From Collinsella stercoris DSM 13279 (lineage in GTDB: Bacteria; Actinomycetota; Coriobacteriia; Coriobacteriales; Coriobacteriaceae): DNA of 64,000 nucleotides. The position numbers and the translations under genes were made by a program. The DNA is taken from positions 248,001 through 312,000 of the forward strand of contig NZ_CP085935.1 in NCBI RefSeq assembly GCF_020735465.1, given 5' to 3'. Shown in pieces: positions 55,882 to 63,999 of the stretch (position 1 is the first letter of the stretch; every line of letters starts with the position of its first letter). Under the pieces are notes generated by a model. It worked only from the letters and a program-made list of their open reading frames with translations, did not search any database and was not told the DNA's origin.

Positions 55882-55900
55882 TATAGTAGAACAAACGTTC
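55882..55900 (+). promoter_or_regulatory. ruvC -10 element and LexA box
   Basis: TATAGT at 55882-55887 is followed directly by GAAC-AAAC-GTTC at 55889-55900, the Gram-positive LexA (DinR) consensus with the AAAC centre. Binding here would cover the transcription start of ruvCAB. The gene start is 20 bp downstream. Confidence 0.85.
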
Positions 55901-58137: not shown

Positions 58138-60321
58138 TTACAGTCCAAGGGCTCGCCGCGCCGCAGCCACGGCGTCGCCGGTCTCGTAGAACTCGGGGCT
58201 CACGGCTCCGATCAGCTCGGGGGCGACGCCCTGCAGGTCCGCGATGGAGCTCATCGGCAGCAGGATGCGCTTGGCGCCTGCGTTCTTCGCGACGCGCAGG
58301 ACATCCGCTAAGTTGCTGATGGGCTCCAGTGACCCAGAGAGGCGCAGGATGCCGGGAATCACCAGTCCCGCTATCACGGGGCGTCCCGATGCGGCGGAGC
58401 ACAGACCGATGAACTCGGCCAGCGACACCTCCGCAGAGGGTCCCTTCGCCTGCAGGTCGTTGCAGAAGAGCAGATAATCCCTGCTTGTCACGTGCATGCC
58501 GGCTGCCAGCCACGGAGCGCAGTTCTTGAATTGCTCGAACGCGGCATTCAGCGCATCACGCACCTCGCGGTTCGGCCCAACGCCCTCCATCCTAAACGCG
58601 GCGTTGCCGCTCACGGCCTTGTTTTCGAGCTTGTATATGGCCATCTCGTCGGCAACCGAGCGACCCACGCCAAAGACGTGGCCTGCCTGCGGCGTGGTGT
58701 CGGGAATGAGCGCGTCGTCGGTTTGTTCCAGCACGCCAACTACGTGCATCTCCACGGGGTTCTCCACATCCGTATATCCCAGCTTCACATCGATGAACTC
58801 GATGCCCGCCATGGTCTTGAGCTGTTCTTTAACGCGTCTGCGCCCCTCGATGGCGTATTCCAGCAGCATGCGCACGTCCTCACGATCCATTTTGCCGTCG
58901 GGGAAAATGAGCTTGGCGAGCCCGCTAAAGGTCTTGCGCACCCCGATCTCGTCGCGGCGGTTGAAATCGCTGTTCAGGCGGAAGTATCGGTCGATGTGGT
59001 GCGTGAAGTCGCGCCTGCGCATGGCGTGGAGGAATTCGCCCAGGCAATCGGTGATGAGGCTGTAGCGCTCGCAGATGAGGTCCGAGCGCATCTTGGGCAC
59101 CTCCCAGCCGGGTAGGTAGCAGTGGATGCGGTCGAAGAACGCGCTGTCGTTGTTGAACTCGGGCGGGAACGGGTCGAACAGGTGTGTGGTCTTGAGCACG
59201 TTTGCCACGGAGTCGTTGATGTTGCCCTCGAACACCATGGACGCCTCGGCGTTAAACGACTCGGTGCCGCGGCCGAAGGTGCCGTTCGCCATGTAGCCCT
59301 TCATGATCTGGATGGCGTTTTGATCGCGAAAGTTCATGCCCGCGACCTCGTCGAACGCGATGCAATCCCAATGCCCCACCAGCCCGATGCGCTGCCCCGC
59401 GCGCGCCGCGTTGTTGGCGAAGAGCTTTGCCGTGGTGGTCTGCCCGCCGGAGAGCAGGTAGGAGTAGGGCGAGACCTCGGTGTAGATGTGGGACTTGCCC
59501 GTCCCGCGGGGCCCCAGCTCGCACAGGTTGTAGTTGAGCTCCACAAGCGGCACCATGCGCGTGAGGAAGTGCATGCGCTCGCGCGGCGTGAGGGCGGACG
59601 GTTCATATCCGGCCGAGCGGAGCAGCAGCGCAATCCACTCGTCGGTGCTGAACGCCTCTCGATGGCTCACGAACTCGGGCAGGTCGAGGCTGGGCATCTG
59701 GATGGGTGTGAGGCTCGCGATTTTGAAAGGGGAGTCCTCGGGCCCGCGCTTGCCCTTGCCCGAGGTTCGCCCTTTGCGCGCCCGCCCGCGCTGTTCGGCG
59801 GGGTCATCGCCGAAGATATCGGCAAGCGGGTCCTCCGCGATGTCCTCGGGCCGCAGGTATTGGATGCGCATGATGCACCATATGCCACCCGTGAGGATCT
59901 TTGTGTGCTGGCGGACGTATTCGTCGGGCATGACGAACGGCTCGATGTTGAGATTGGTGAACTGCGCGATGTAGAGATCGCGGTATTCGTCCAGGCGGGC
60001 GCTCACCTTATCGATCACGGTGTATTGCCCCAGCTCGCGGATGCGGCTCTTGATCTTCTCGCTTTCCTCGGGGCGAACGTAGTTCTCGGCGAGGATTTTT
60101 CGGATACGCGCCATGCCATCGGCGATCGCCGCCTCGTCATCGGTGGCGCAATACATGCCCAGCAGGTACTCCAGCACGTACGTGGGGATGCCCGCGCTGC
60201 GCTTCATGAGGGAGGTGAGGTCCTTGCGCACGATCTTGCCGGGGAAATGCTCGATGATCTTGCGGTCGAGCTCATCTGCTTCATATGCGGGCACGCCGCA
60301 GGTGCCGAAACTTGAATCCAT
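58138..60321 (-). CDS. brxL: BREX system Lon-like protease BrxL
   Basis: This is a BREX phage-defence component with AAA+ and Lon-like protease domains. The 727-residue protein has ELGPRGTGKSHIYTE (Walker A) near 270, IAFDEVAGMNF (Walker B) near 325, and FNAEASMVFEGNINDS. The C-terminal Lon-like domain (about 540-727) includes GPSAEVSLAEFIG with the serine, and AKNAGAKRILLPMSS with the lysine. It is the last gene of the reverse-strand BREX set, three bases after pglZ. The type I order pglX-pglZ-brxL is kept. Confidence 0.93.
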   Translation of the reverse strand: MDSSFGTCGVPAYEADELDRKIIEHFPGKIVRKDLTSLMKRSAGIPTYVLEYLLGMYCATDDEAAIADGMARIRKILAENYVRPEESEKIKSRIRELGQYTVIDKVSARLDEYRDLYIAQFTNLNIEPFVMPDEYVRQHTKILTGGIWCIMRIQYLRPEDIAEDPLADIFGDDPAEQRGRARKGRTSGKGKRGPEDSPFKIASLTPIQMPSLDLPEFVSHREAFSTDEWIALLLRSAGYEPSALTPRERMHFLTRMVPLVELNYNLCELGPRGTGKSHIYTEVSPYSYLLSGGQTTTAKLFANNAARAGQRIGLVGHWDCIAFDEVAGMNFRDQNAIQIMKGYMANGTFGRGTESFNAEASMVFEGNINDSVANVLKTTHLFDPFPPEFNNDSAFFDRIHCYLPGWEVPKMRSDLICERYSLITDCLGEFLHAMRRRDFTHHIDRYFRLNSDFNRRDEIGVRKTFSGLAKLIFPDGKMDREDVRMLLEYAIEGRRRVKEQLKTMAGIEFIDVKLGYTDVENPVEMHVVGVLEQTDDALIPDTTPQAGHVFGVGRSVADEMAIYKLENKAVSGNAAFRMEGVGPNREVRDALNAAFEQFKNCAPWLAAGMHVTSRDYLLFCNDLQAKGPSAEVSLAEFIGLCSAASGRPVIAGLVIPGILRLSGSLEPISNLADVLRVAKNAGAKRILLPMSSIADLQGVAPELIGAVSPEFYETGDAVAAARRALGL

Positions 60322-60324
60322 GGG

Positions 60325-62919
60325 TTACCATCCAAAATCAAACGAAGGGGCGAAGGCAATTCGCATGCGCAGCTCGCGCAAGGTGTCCACGGTGCCGATG
60401 TCGCAGTTGCGCGCGTAGAGGAAATACGGCTCCTGCTCGCTCACGGTTACACCTGGTTTGATATTGAGCGTGATGGGGATGACGCGCTCATCTGCGGAGT
60501 CTTGCGTGCGGTCGGCTGCGACATGCGCGATGTCGGTTACGGGTTCGCGCGATGCGTTCCCCACGAACACGTCGTACGAGGCGGGGAGAACCTTGCCGCC
60601 CACGGGCTTGTCTTGCAGCAGGTCCAGCTTGAAGATGCTGTTCGAGATCGTGTCGACGGTGGTGATGAGCGAGAGCGTTGCCTGTTCGCTTTCCACATAA
60701 CCCTTGCTGCCCGCTCGCTTGTTGGTGAACGTGAGCACGGGCACGCAGAGCTCCTGCAGGGAGATGCCTCCGTGCACGTAATTCTCGCCCGCGCCTGCCC
60801 GGGCGATGCGCGTGCAGCGCCGAGGCGCGAAGCCCTTGAGCTTGCCTTCCGCGTGCGGCAGGGCGATGGGCATGAGGACGTCGGAGCGCGCGCTGCCCTC
60901 GGCGATGGCGTAGCGGCGCCCGACGACGATCGTGTCTCCGTCGATCTCGGCCGCGACGGTGTGCTCCGAGGTGCTGAGCGGCTCGTCGGTATAGAGAAAG
61001 CCGTGGTCGGCGGTGACGACGACCTGGCTTGCGATTCGCTCGCGACAGATGAGCTGCACCAAGCCGAAGATCTCCTTCACCGTATCGTCGCAGGCTGAGA
61101 ACACCTTGCGCTCGGTGGGTGCTTTGTCGCCCATCGCATCGATGATGTTGTGATAGACGTAGACGACCTGCGCGTCCTTGACGAGGTCCTTGCGTTGGCT
61201 CGCGCTCATCTCGTTGACGAGTGAGTCGTAGGTGATGGCGACGGCGTGCGGGTCGCTGCGGCGCAGTTGCTCTTGGCGCGCGGCGGTCGTAGCCACCTCC
61301 GAGCCGTCGAGCAGCACGCGCAGCCGCCCGGGCTCGCTCGCATCCATGGTGAGGTGTCCGCAGGGCAGCAGCGACGCCATGCCGCACGAGGTTATGCTGG
61401 GGAATGTGGCCTGCATGGAAGCGAGCTCGCATGTCCCCTTGGTGTTTTGCTCGAGCGTTTCCGCCAGCTCCGCGGCGACTTCGTAGCGCAAGGCATCAGA
61501 GACGATGACGCAGGCGCGCTTGCCCGCACGAACAATCGGCTCGACGGAGCTCATGAAGAAATCGATTTGACGTGGGATGCCGTCAACATAGCCGTTTCGA
61601 GACAGCCCGTCCTCGGCGGCGTCCTCCCACCGGCGCGAAATGCCGGCGAAAAACCAGTTCTTGTAGAGGTTCTCGATCTGATCGCTGCATGCGCGGAAGT
61701 CCTCGTCGAGCCCGTATGGTGCACTGATGAGGGCGCGCCCGAGTGCGAGGTGCATCTGGCGGTACCACGTGTCGAGGCGGTATAGCTCGCCGGTGTAGAG
61801 GCCCCAGACACGCTCTGCAGAAAGAGCGTCGATGCCGCCCGGGTGCTCATTGCGGAACCGCTGCATGCGCGCGGCCGCCTCAAGCCCGTCATAGCAAAGG
61901 GAGAACTCCCGATACCAGGCCGTGCTGTGGCGTGCTTGGGCGAGTGCGAGCGCAGCGGGTGCGTTTTCGGGCGACGCTGCGACGTCATGGAACAGGTGGC
62001 GCAAGATGAGCGCATCGATGCAGGGGAACACATCGATATCGCCTAGGTTTTCGAGTGGCACCTGGGCGAGCATCTGCTCGACGGGCGCGACCTCCTCCAC
62101 GAGCTGCGCGAGCTCGAACAGGGAGTCCCGCTCGGCGCTCTGACACCAGCCACGCACGATATCCTGACAGAGCGCGGTGCTGCCCGAGGTCACGTCTGCG
62201 GGCAGCACCGAGGCGGCGTCGTTGGGCAAAGCGCCGGCGAGTGCACACAGGAGCACGTGCCGCCCGAGCGCGATGAAGTCGCTCGCGTCGCCTGTATAGC
62301 CAATCCATGCGGAGATTGCCGCCTGGAACTCGTCGGTGCAGCCCATGCGCTCAACCTGGGCGAGCGCCTCGGCTCCATCCGATGCCAGCGCCGCGATGAG
62401 GTATGCGCGTACGATGGCCTGCGCGTCGGGAGAGGGCGCGTCGAGCGCGATGGCCATGAGGCCGCAGGCGAGCTGCTGCGGCTGCTCAAAAGAGGCGCTT
62501 AAGCGCGTGAGTTTGCGCAGCACGGTCTTTTTTGCGAGCTGCGCCTTGTGGGCGGCCAGCACCTCGCGCATCTCGTGGGTGTCGACTGCGTTGAGTTCAC
62601 GCAGCTGCATGGAGGTGTAGTCGGCGGCGAAGCTGGTGGAGCGAGCCTCAACGTCGGCGAGCCAGTCGCCCTCCAGGCGGCGGGGGCGCGGTCGGTAGAG
62701 CAGGATGCGATGGCCCGCGAGGTCGCCGTTCAGCGTGCGCTTGAGCGAGAACAGCTCGTGCTCCTCCTCGCGCATCACGTCGACGCCCGGCAGATCGAGC
62801 GCGTCGAGGGATTCGGCAAACGCGCCATCCGGGTCGTGCCACACCACGACGGTGCCAGCCGATGCGTCTTGTTCGTCAAAGAGCCTGATTAGCTCCTGCT
62901 GTATATCGGATAGCTTCAT
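60325..62919 (-). CDS. pglZ: BREX system alkaline-phosphatase-like protein PglZ
   Basis: This is the BREX hallmark protein, needed with PglX for methylation and phage blocking. The 864-residue protein has the metal-binding residues of the alkaline phosphatase fold in CVIVSDALRYEVAAEL near 470, SITSCGMASLLP near 505, and VVTADHGFLYTDE near 630. The N-terminal part (VVWHDPDGAFAESLDAL) and the C-terminal domain fit PglZ type A of BREX type 1. It starts 44 bases after the pglX piece and is probably in the same transcript. Confidence 0.94.
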   Translation of the reverse strand: MKLSDIQQELIRLFDEQDASAGTVVVWHDPDGAFAESLDALDLPGVDVMREEEHELFSLKRTLNGDLAGHRILLYRPRPRRLEGDWLADVEARSTSFAADYTSMQLRELNAVDTHEMREVLAAHKAQLAKKTVLRKLTRLSASFEQPQQLACGLMAIALDAPSPDAQAIVRAYLIAALASDGAEALAQVERMGCTDEFQAAISAWIGYTGDASDFIALGRHVLLCALAGALPNDAASVLPADVTSGSTALCQDIVRGWCQSAERDSLFELAQLVEEVAPVEQMLAQVPLENLGDIDVFPCIDALILRHLFHDVAASPENAPAALALAQARHSTAWYREFSLCYDGLEAAARMQRFRNEHPGGIDALSAERVWGLYTGELYRLDTWYRQMHLALGRALISAPYGLDEDFRACSDQIENLYKNWFFAGISRRWEDAAEDGLSRNGYVDGIPRQIDFFMSSVEPIVRAGKRACVIVSDALRYEVAAELAETLEQNTKGTCELASMQATFPSITSCGMASLLPCGHLTMDASEPGRLRVLLDGSEVATTAARQEQLRRSDPHAVAITYDSLVNEMSASQRKDLVKDAQVVYVYHNIIDAMGDKAPTERKVFSACDDTVKEIFGLVQLICRERIASQVVVTADHGFLYTDEPLSTSEHTVAAEIDGDTIVVGRRYAIAEGSARSDVLMPIALPHAEGKLKGFAPRRCTRIARAGAGENYVHGGISLQELCVPVLTFTNKRAGSKGYVESEQATLSLITTVDTISNSIFKLDLLQDKPVGGKVLPASYDVFVGNASREPVTDIAHVAADRTQDSADERVIPITLNIKPGVTVSEQEPYFLYARNCDIGTVDTLRELRMRIAFAPSFDFGW

Positions 62920-62963: not shown

Positions 62964-63938
62964 CTACTTGACCTTTGCGAGTACGTCTTGGAAGGTGGCG
63001 TAATTGGTCTTCACGCCGTCGTCCAGGTCGATGGCGATCATTTGGTCGGCGAAGCGGTGGATCTTCTCCTCATACGCGATGAGCTCAGTTTCCTGGTCGC
63101 GCAGCTGCTTGAGCTTCTTGTTGAGCGCTGCCTTGCGGCGCGGCTCGCAGTGGATGAGCTCCTCCTCGGCGTCTGCGATGCGCCCGCGTAGGCGCTCCTG
63201 CTGCGGGTGGACGTAGTCGGTGCGGATGCAGGCCATGAGGTCGGGACGGTAGCGGTGCATATAGAAGAGCGCCTTGAAGCTGTTCTTCTTACCGGCGTCG
63301 AGCAGCCAGTAGATGGGGCGCTTCTTGTAGGTGGAGCAGTGGTCGGCGTAGAACTCCTTGAGGAAGTACGCTCGGATCACCTCGAGCGGGGCCGCCTTGG
63401 CGGCGGGGGAGAGGGCGTCGGCGATGAAGGCGAGGTTATCGTTGAGCGTCTCGGCGCCGTAGACGGTGCGGACGAAGTCCACCAGGCGCGCCACGATGTC
63501 GTCCTTGAAGTACTCGTCGTCGGTGATGGGTAGCACGTTGTCGGCGTCGGGCATGAAGGTCACATGTGTCGGGTCGGGCATCTTGGCGAGGTAGTCCTCC
63601 ACCGTGTCGCCCGCGTCGGCCAGCACCAGGCCCTCGACGTCGAGCGAGTAGCGGCCGAACATGCAGCCCACGGCGTAGGAGATGAGCGAGATGATCTCGT
63701 CGCGCTTGGTCCGCACGTAGCGGTTGCCCTTGAACGATTCCGGGACATCTTCGGCGGTGTCGAAGATGCGCGCCACCGAGACGTACTTGTCCTCGACCTC
63801 GATGGGCACCTCGCCCTCCATGTCGTAGATCTTGGCGAAGATGCGGTTGAGCTCCTCCTCGTTAGCCCGAAGCTGATCAAATCGGGCGTTGACCTCGGCT
63901 TTGTGCGCCTCGTACTTGTCGCGGATGAGGGTTGCCAT
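62964..63938 (-). CDS. pglX: Stand-alone C-terminal segment of BREX methyltransferase PglX
   Basis: A 324-residue protein matching only the last quarter of PglX. It has ELNRIFAKIYDMEGE, the family segment LISYAVGCMFGRYSLD, the STYKKRPIYWLL and FYMHRYRPDLM blocks, a coiled-coil-like stretch (about 240-295), and the final AIDLDDGVKTNYATFQDVL. The methyltransferase domain with its NPPY motif is absent. ATG 63938 has AAAGG before it, and a -10 plus two LexA-like boxes lie directly upstream. It therefore looks like an independently expressed gene, not a piece cut by the window edge. The rest of pglX is not in view. Confidence 0.85.
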   Translation of the reverse strand: MATLIRDKYEAHKAEVNARFDQLRANEEELNRIFAKIYDMEGEVPIEVEDKYVSVARIFDTAEDVPESFKGNRYVRTKRDEIISLISYAVGCMFGRYSLDVEGLVLADAGDTVEDYLAKMPDPTHVTFMPDADNVLPITDDEYFKDDIVARLVDFVRTVYGAETLNDNLAFIADALSPAAKAAPLEVIRAYFLKEFYADHCSTYKKRPIYWLLDAGKKNSFKALFYMHRYRPDLMACIRTDYVHPQQERLRGRIADAEEELIHCEPRRKAALNKKLKQLRDQETELIAYEEKIHRFADQMIAIDLDDGVKTNYATFQDVLAKVK

Positions 63939-63961: not shown

Positions 63962-63999
63962 GAACAAATGTTCGTATCAATAGTGTAGAACATGTGTTC
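63962..63999 (-). promoter_or_regulatory. Twin LexA-type boxes flanking a -10 element before the BREX genes
   Basis: GAAC-AAAT-GTTC (63962-63973) and GAAC-ATGT-GTTC (63988-63999) lie 26 bp apart centre to centre. The reverse-strand -10 TACACT (63982-63987) sits between them. Both have the GAAC-N4-GTTC form seen before ruvC. The matching -35 would lie beyond the window edge. Confidence 0.75.

Follow-up and report, generated by a model that had tools for sequence, protein, structure and literature searches.

Paired LexA-type boxes at a divergent boundary between a DUF3800 cassette and the split-PglX half of a Collinsella BREX locus

Analysis of a 64,000-nucleotide stretch (the window, positions 248001-312000 of a complete 2.46-Mb Collinsella genome, here G000) revealed two palindromes of the form GAAC-N4-GTTC inside a type 1 BREX locus. 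In the reading preferred here, with a probability of about 0.6, these boxes are LexA operators in a divergent region, acting both on a DUF3800 cassette and on the genes pglX-C, pglZ and brxL.

The BREX locus lies at about 0.31 Mb, and because the box pair falls within the window's final 40 bases, the deciding context is found outside it. The PADLOC models and gene positions identified the complete set of brxA, brxB, brxC, pglX, pglZ and brxL in that order. In full, the minus-strand order is brxA, brxB, brxC, pglX-N, an IS1595-type transposase gene (opposite strand), a DUF3800 gene (opposite strand), the two boxes, pglX-C, pglZ and brxL. Among the genomes compared, Collinsella intestinalis DSM 13280 (G005) comes closest at this locus, with 97% identity in pglX-C. 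The transposase gene (L017:13769-14470) overlaps the 3' end of pglX-N; the usual stop codon of pglX-N in G000 was lost and replaced by the insertion element, and the reading frame extends about 49 codons further. The features are as follows.

58138..60321, minus strand: brxL (PADLOC BrxL, E=2e-260)
60325..62919, minus strand: pglZ (PADLOC PglZ, E=2.9e-188)
62964..63938, minus strand: pglX-C, the same as L017:10964-11938 (minus), a stand-alone open reading frame in the 15 closest Coriobacteriaceae loci
L017:14433-17108, minus strand: pglX-N, covering positions 1-873 of the PADLOC PglX profile
63962..63973, no strand: LexA-type box proximal to pglX-C, GAACAAATGTTC, exact GAAC-N4-GTTC match
63988..63999, no strand: LexA-type box proximal to the divergent DUF3800 gene, GAACATGTGTTC, exact GAAC-N4-GTTC match
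55889..55900, no strand: single LexA-type box before ruvC, GAACAAACGTTC, exact match, a comparison site outside BREX
G000:C1:312038-312125 (L017:12038-12125), plus strand: leader RNA of DUF3800, two hairpins and a terminator, 38 bp beyond the window

An earlier note on this DNA had described two such palindromes before a pglX piece and a box of the same kind at ruvC, and both descriptions hold: the two palindromes are exact and precede the pglX-C ATG (63938, minus strand) by 23 and 49 bp, and the ruvC box lies in the same window. The reverse-strand -10 element that it placed between the boxes was not borne out, since the 14-bp spacer is kept at only 4 of 14 positions and a consensus scan shows no promoter there.

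The window contains 5 perfect sites against 0.76 expected, a number reached in none of 100 shuffles. Genome-wide, GAAC-N4-GTTC occurs at 38 places in G000 and the reversed control pattern at 74, so that there is no over-representation; the overall frequency is therefore uninformative and single boxes are weak proof, and this measure, once tested, was left out as evidence. Close pairs (8-20 bp between the boxes) are a different matter: from the site density about 0.008 would be expected per genome, three were found in G000, and the reversed control pattern gave 1 pair across 45 Collinsella genomes. The pairing of the boxes is not due to chance. That the palindromes are nevertheless accidental, or belong to a hairpin or terminator, is hardly credible: the lack of a genome-wide excess would fit, as would another pair in G000 (1287286/1287319) that is a mirror image and probably a hairpin or terminator itself, but the BREX pair keeps its spacing and position across three genera while its spacer diverges, and the reversed control of the exact pair was found in only 2 of 397 genomes of the order. 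Elsewhere in G000, one box lies within the coding sequence of rlmN (2024621, gene identified by eye), where it is probably unrelated or due to chance, and another box precedes an ATP-synthase-like gene (2132151, named by eye).

The identity of the boxes was examined at SOS genes of the same genome. The single lexA gene of G000 has two boxes directly upstream, separated by a 16-bp gap, and a pair with this gap is present in all 45 Collinsella genomes, adjoining a LexA-domain match wherever lexA was located. In G000, a box stands 37 bp from the recA start. Ahead of ruvC, at most 80 bp away, a perfect box is present in 28 of 28 Collinsella genomes; of two other genomes of the order, one has it as well (29/30 overall). 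The lexA product is a true LexA, with helix-turn-helix and S24 peptidase domains and matches to solved LexA structures; its comparison with the DNA-binding domain of Bacillus subtilis LexA serves as a lead only. Since boxes stand at lexA, recA and ruvC and the protein has LexA domains, the LexA motif of this genome is very probably GAAC-N4-GTTC. The BREX pair shares its half-sites exactly with the boxes at lexA and ruvC of the same genomes. The BREX-locus palindromes are thus very probably LexA operators, and binding of LexA to them is highly likely as judged from sequence. This agrees with the assignment of the boxes to the LexA/DinR type in the earlier note, and the search against known SOS genes that it proposed, which located boxes at lexA and recA, gave the host motif the same form.

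The likeness to LexA sites could in principle be convergent, with the palindromes binding some other repressor, either proper to BREX or linked to DUF3800. A dedicated BREX repressor acting on inverted repeats, BrxR, is known, and the earlier note named a BrxR homologue upstream as an alternative binder. However, no WYL/BrxR gene is present at the BREX locus, the only two WYL matches of the genome being located at 2.02 Mb with none within 1.7 Mb, and no evident helix-turn-helix gene lies between pglX-N and pglX-C. Together with the half-sites shared with lexA and ruvC, this makes another regulator quite improbable.

In G000, two GyrI-like (SbmC-related) genes carry upstream LexA-type boxes (G000:C1:381377 and 1408953), and a box at G000:C1:1250982 precedes a DEAD/DEAH helicase gene that follows a P-loop ATPase resembling, by eye, defence proteins. 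A HigBA-like toxin-antitoxin is preceded by a box pair with an 11-bp gap (G000:C1:1269477-1269511), kept in C. intestinalis (G005:C2:262423). Apart from lexA, the close pairs in Collinsella are those at BREX/DUF3800 (G000, G005, G023) and this HigBA-like pair (G000, G005).

The pair at the BREX locus is conserved in relatives, as an alignment of the same promoter region revealed. A pair with a 14-bp gap occurs in seven loci from three genera (G000, G005, G023, G056, G101, G103 and G052), which all agree at 15 of 16 half-site bases but at 4 of 14 spacer bases. The half-sites of the DUF3800-proximal box are invariant in all seven. The pglX-C-proximal box is found at the same place, altered in its centre, in G005, G023, G056, G101 and G052, and the sole half-site exception is a GTTT end of this box in G103. 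A survey of 397 genomes of the order found the exact pair, 14-bp gap included, in 15. Six of these belong to the family, where the pair always stands at DUF3800 and in five of six cases in BREX; among the nine outside it, five have the pair at lexA (another family) and one near a HicB-like gene (by eye), while three are unexplained.

Most BREX loci with a stand-alone pglX-C have no box pair, which is present only in G000, G005, G023, G056, G101 and G103, and perfect boxes are missing from BREX loci whose pglX gap lacks DUF3800. In G052, DUF3800 and the box pair are found without BREX. In the genomes compared, the pair thus tracks DUF3800 rather than BREX. The first BREX half (brxA-brxB-brxC-pglX-N) contains no perfect box in any locus read.

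What had been called a pglX piece proved to be an intact, conserved gene. The PADLOC PglX profile is covered by two genes, pglX-N (1-873) and pglX-C (877-1170), with the methyltransferase, TRD and C-terminal domain all present, and pglX-C matches residues 898-1195 of Escherichia coli BrxX, the C-terminal domain of which comprises residues 838-1205 (PMC11842806). From these match positions, pglX-C therefore corresponds to the BREX-specific C-terminal domain alone. It is a separate open reading frame in the 15 closest Coriobacteriaceae loci, three more distant relatives having one long gene, and further stand-alone copies are found in Eggerthellaceae and in some Clostridia. The end point of pglX-N is constant, lying in (K/A)xxPL(V/I/L), in those relatives whose upstream gene is covered. 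The possibility that pglX-C is a fragment broken off by the IS1595-type element was ruled out, as it stands alone in the 15 closest relatives without the insertion. In Coriobacteriaceae (L017 and loci L058-L072), PglX is accordingly split at the boundary between the TRD and the C-terminal domain into a methyltransferase-TRD gene and a C-terminal-domain gene.

The gap between pglX-N and pglX-C holds 0.7-5.7 kb of varying genes in relatives. They include genes for small proteins whose R-N-x-x-A-H-G motif recalls HEPN (a single weak HEPN match in Pfam, under the cut-off), an SNF2 helicase, a SIR2-like gene (by eye) and DUF3800. In the Coriobacteriaceae loci, the split inside PglX appears to be a cargo site for accessory genes. 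Within BREX gaps, the box pair was seen only together with a divergent DUF3800 gene and a structured leader RNA. In G023 the pair is followed immediately by a gene of 1205 amino acids belonging to no known family, and then by pglX-C.

The divergent DUF3800 gene of G000 stands just outside the window and matches PF12686 with 31.6 bits against a Pfam cut-off of 21. Its invariant residues are DESG (D9, E10), D132, D139 and D179. The AlphaFold2 model has a mean pLDDT of 90.5, with RNases HII as the nearest solved folds (Z 8.6, rmsd 3.8, 162 aligned), and the protein is predicted to adopt an RNase H fold; no solved structure matching the DUF3800 profile by sequence was found. A 69-codon open reading frame (MFPDFDSLPVV..., L017:12799-13008, plus strand) starts two bases past the DUF3800 stop and possibly encodes a partner protein.

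The leader comprises a TATAAA element, a hairpin and an intrinsic terminator, followed by the DUF3800 gene. Hairpin 1 covaries, with both sides changed in seven of eight pairs, and a covariance model detected the leader in 26 of 67 genomes of the family, in most cases at DUF3800. A search of Rfam gave no match near DUF3800 here (E up to 1) or in 18 loci of relatives (at the gathering score). Several genomes carry a second, co-oriented copy of the leader downstream of DUF3800 (G000:C1:313030-313112, plus strand; G005:C3:37474-37561; G006:C7:13756-13843; G103:C77:6128-6216; G026:C15:55044-55122). The pglX gap of G012 has a solo leader copy with a boxed promoter and without DUF3800 (C23:26251-26338), which looks like the product of recombination between two copies.

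Five cassettes without a divergent pglX-C (G006, G014, G007, G026 and G044) have one box, GAACATRTGTTT, inside the promoter spacer. Their promoter is near-consensus, TTGACG-N17-TATAAT or TATACT, and the box, one base off a perfect box, is at a repressor position. Such single-box cassettes were found downstream of brxL and, in one case (G026), in a genome that yielded no pglX-C. SOS control of DUF3800 is likely.

The same single-box cassettes, with the box inside the DUF3800 promoter whether downstream of brxL or in a BREX-free genome, raise the question of whether the operators in the pglX gap belong to the DUF3800/leader-RNA cassette only, which would stand there head-on, leaving the downstream BREX genes to be expressed by read-through and free of SOS control. 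The boxes may indeed serve DUF3800 alone, because G052 has the pair without BREX. The consensus scan showed no convincing sigma-70 promoter toward pglX-C, and read-through from brxA-pglX-N is conceivable; a CATATAG element beside the pglX-C ribosome site resembles the leader of the box-less loci G055 and G058 and may not be a -10. Nevertheless, the second box of the divergent form sits on the pglX-C side, 23 bp from the ATG in G000, and no form other than the two-box, divergent one has a box there. Read-through is disfavoured in G000, because the IS1595-type element and an antisense gene intervene between pglX-N and pglX-C. The G052 cassette keeps TTCTACATA beside its distal box, as if it had been derived from a BREX gap. 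Operators confined to the cassette are thus a serious but doubtful explanation.

The preferred reading, with one boundary for both directions, takes the limitation of the pair to divergent DUF3800 cassettes as a sign that it probably serves DUF3800 and pglX-C-pglZ-brxL together. SOS control of the pglX-C-pglZ-brxL half is somewhat favoured, box position being the one basis for this side. Host methylation depends on PglZ in Acinetobacter BREX (PMC9122589), so that tight repression would leave the genome unprotected before induction. Given this requirement, the lack of a clear pglX-C promoter and the G052 pair without BREX, a modulated level is likelier than an on/off switch, and the pglX-C half would probably rise over a basal level.

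Under this model, LexA bound to both boxes in undamaged cells would keep transcription down on either side. Once phage attack or damage of another kind gave rise to RecA-ssDNA filaments, LexA would cleave itself and expression on both sides would rise, while the box-free brxA-brxB-brxC-pglX-N half would stay on. It is an even bet that the whole of the following picture holds: a LexA-controlled boundary couples a DUF3800/small-RNA cassette to the split-PglX half of BREX, damage raises the PglX C-terminal domain, PglZ and BrxL along with an accessory effector, and the PglX split is a cargo site in gut Coriobacteria and some Clostridia.

Should this be so, BREX expression would be linked to the DNA-damage signal of the cell, with phage infection, prophage induction and gut antibiotics as triggers, and BREX would gain a regulator outside the WYL/BrxR family. 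The question would then be how a BREX system with PglZ-dependent methylation can cope with pglZ being repressed by LexA. With PglX naturally divided between its TRD and C-terminal domain, the locus also lends itself to probing the role of the BREX-specific C-terminal domain.

With regard to known systems, LexA/DinR operators of Gram-positive bacteria, including actinobacteria, have the same GAAC-N4-GTTC form, paired at lexA and single at recA and ruvC, whereas the target here is a divergent DUF3800/BREX region, and no DUF3800 or BREX target appeared in the literature searched. Neither LexA-controlled BREX nor a split PglX was found reported in the open-access full texts searched. The type 1 BREX of Bacillus cereus is organised in two operons, brxA-brxB-brxC-pglX and pglZ-brxL (PMC9122589); the gene set and order are the same and its tail genes form a separate transcription unit, whereas here the break lies inside pglX, the C-terminal domain joins pglZ-brxL, and LexA boxes are located at the break. 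In BrxR (WYL)-controlled BREX (PMC9122601, PMC9122589), a repressor likewise acts at palindromic DNA upstream of BREX genes, but the Collinsella locus has no WYL gene and its boxes are mid-operon and match LexA sites. In the E. coli SymE/SymR pair (PMC1891008), LexA represses a gene that has its own small RNA and occurs in islands alongside restriction-modification operons; SymE is an AbrB-fold protein and SymR is antisense, in contrast to the predicted RNase H fold of DUF3800, its leader RNA and its position divergent to a BREX half. In the SOS meta-regulon of the human gut (PMC3998124), LexA sites were predicted at the restriction gene hsdS and a death-on-curing toxin, the defence system there being type I restriction rather than BREX. 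Finally, DUF3800 genes have been linked to putative ncRNAs and Cas12a2 (PMC10910872), sharing with the present cassette the RNase H fold, a linked RNA and a defence setting, while the leader described here matches no Rfam family and is distinguished by its BREX setting and LexA boxes.
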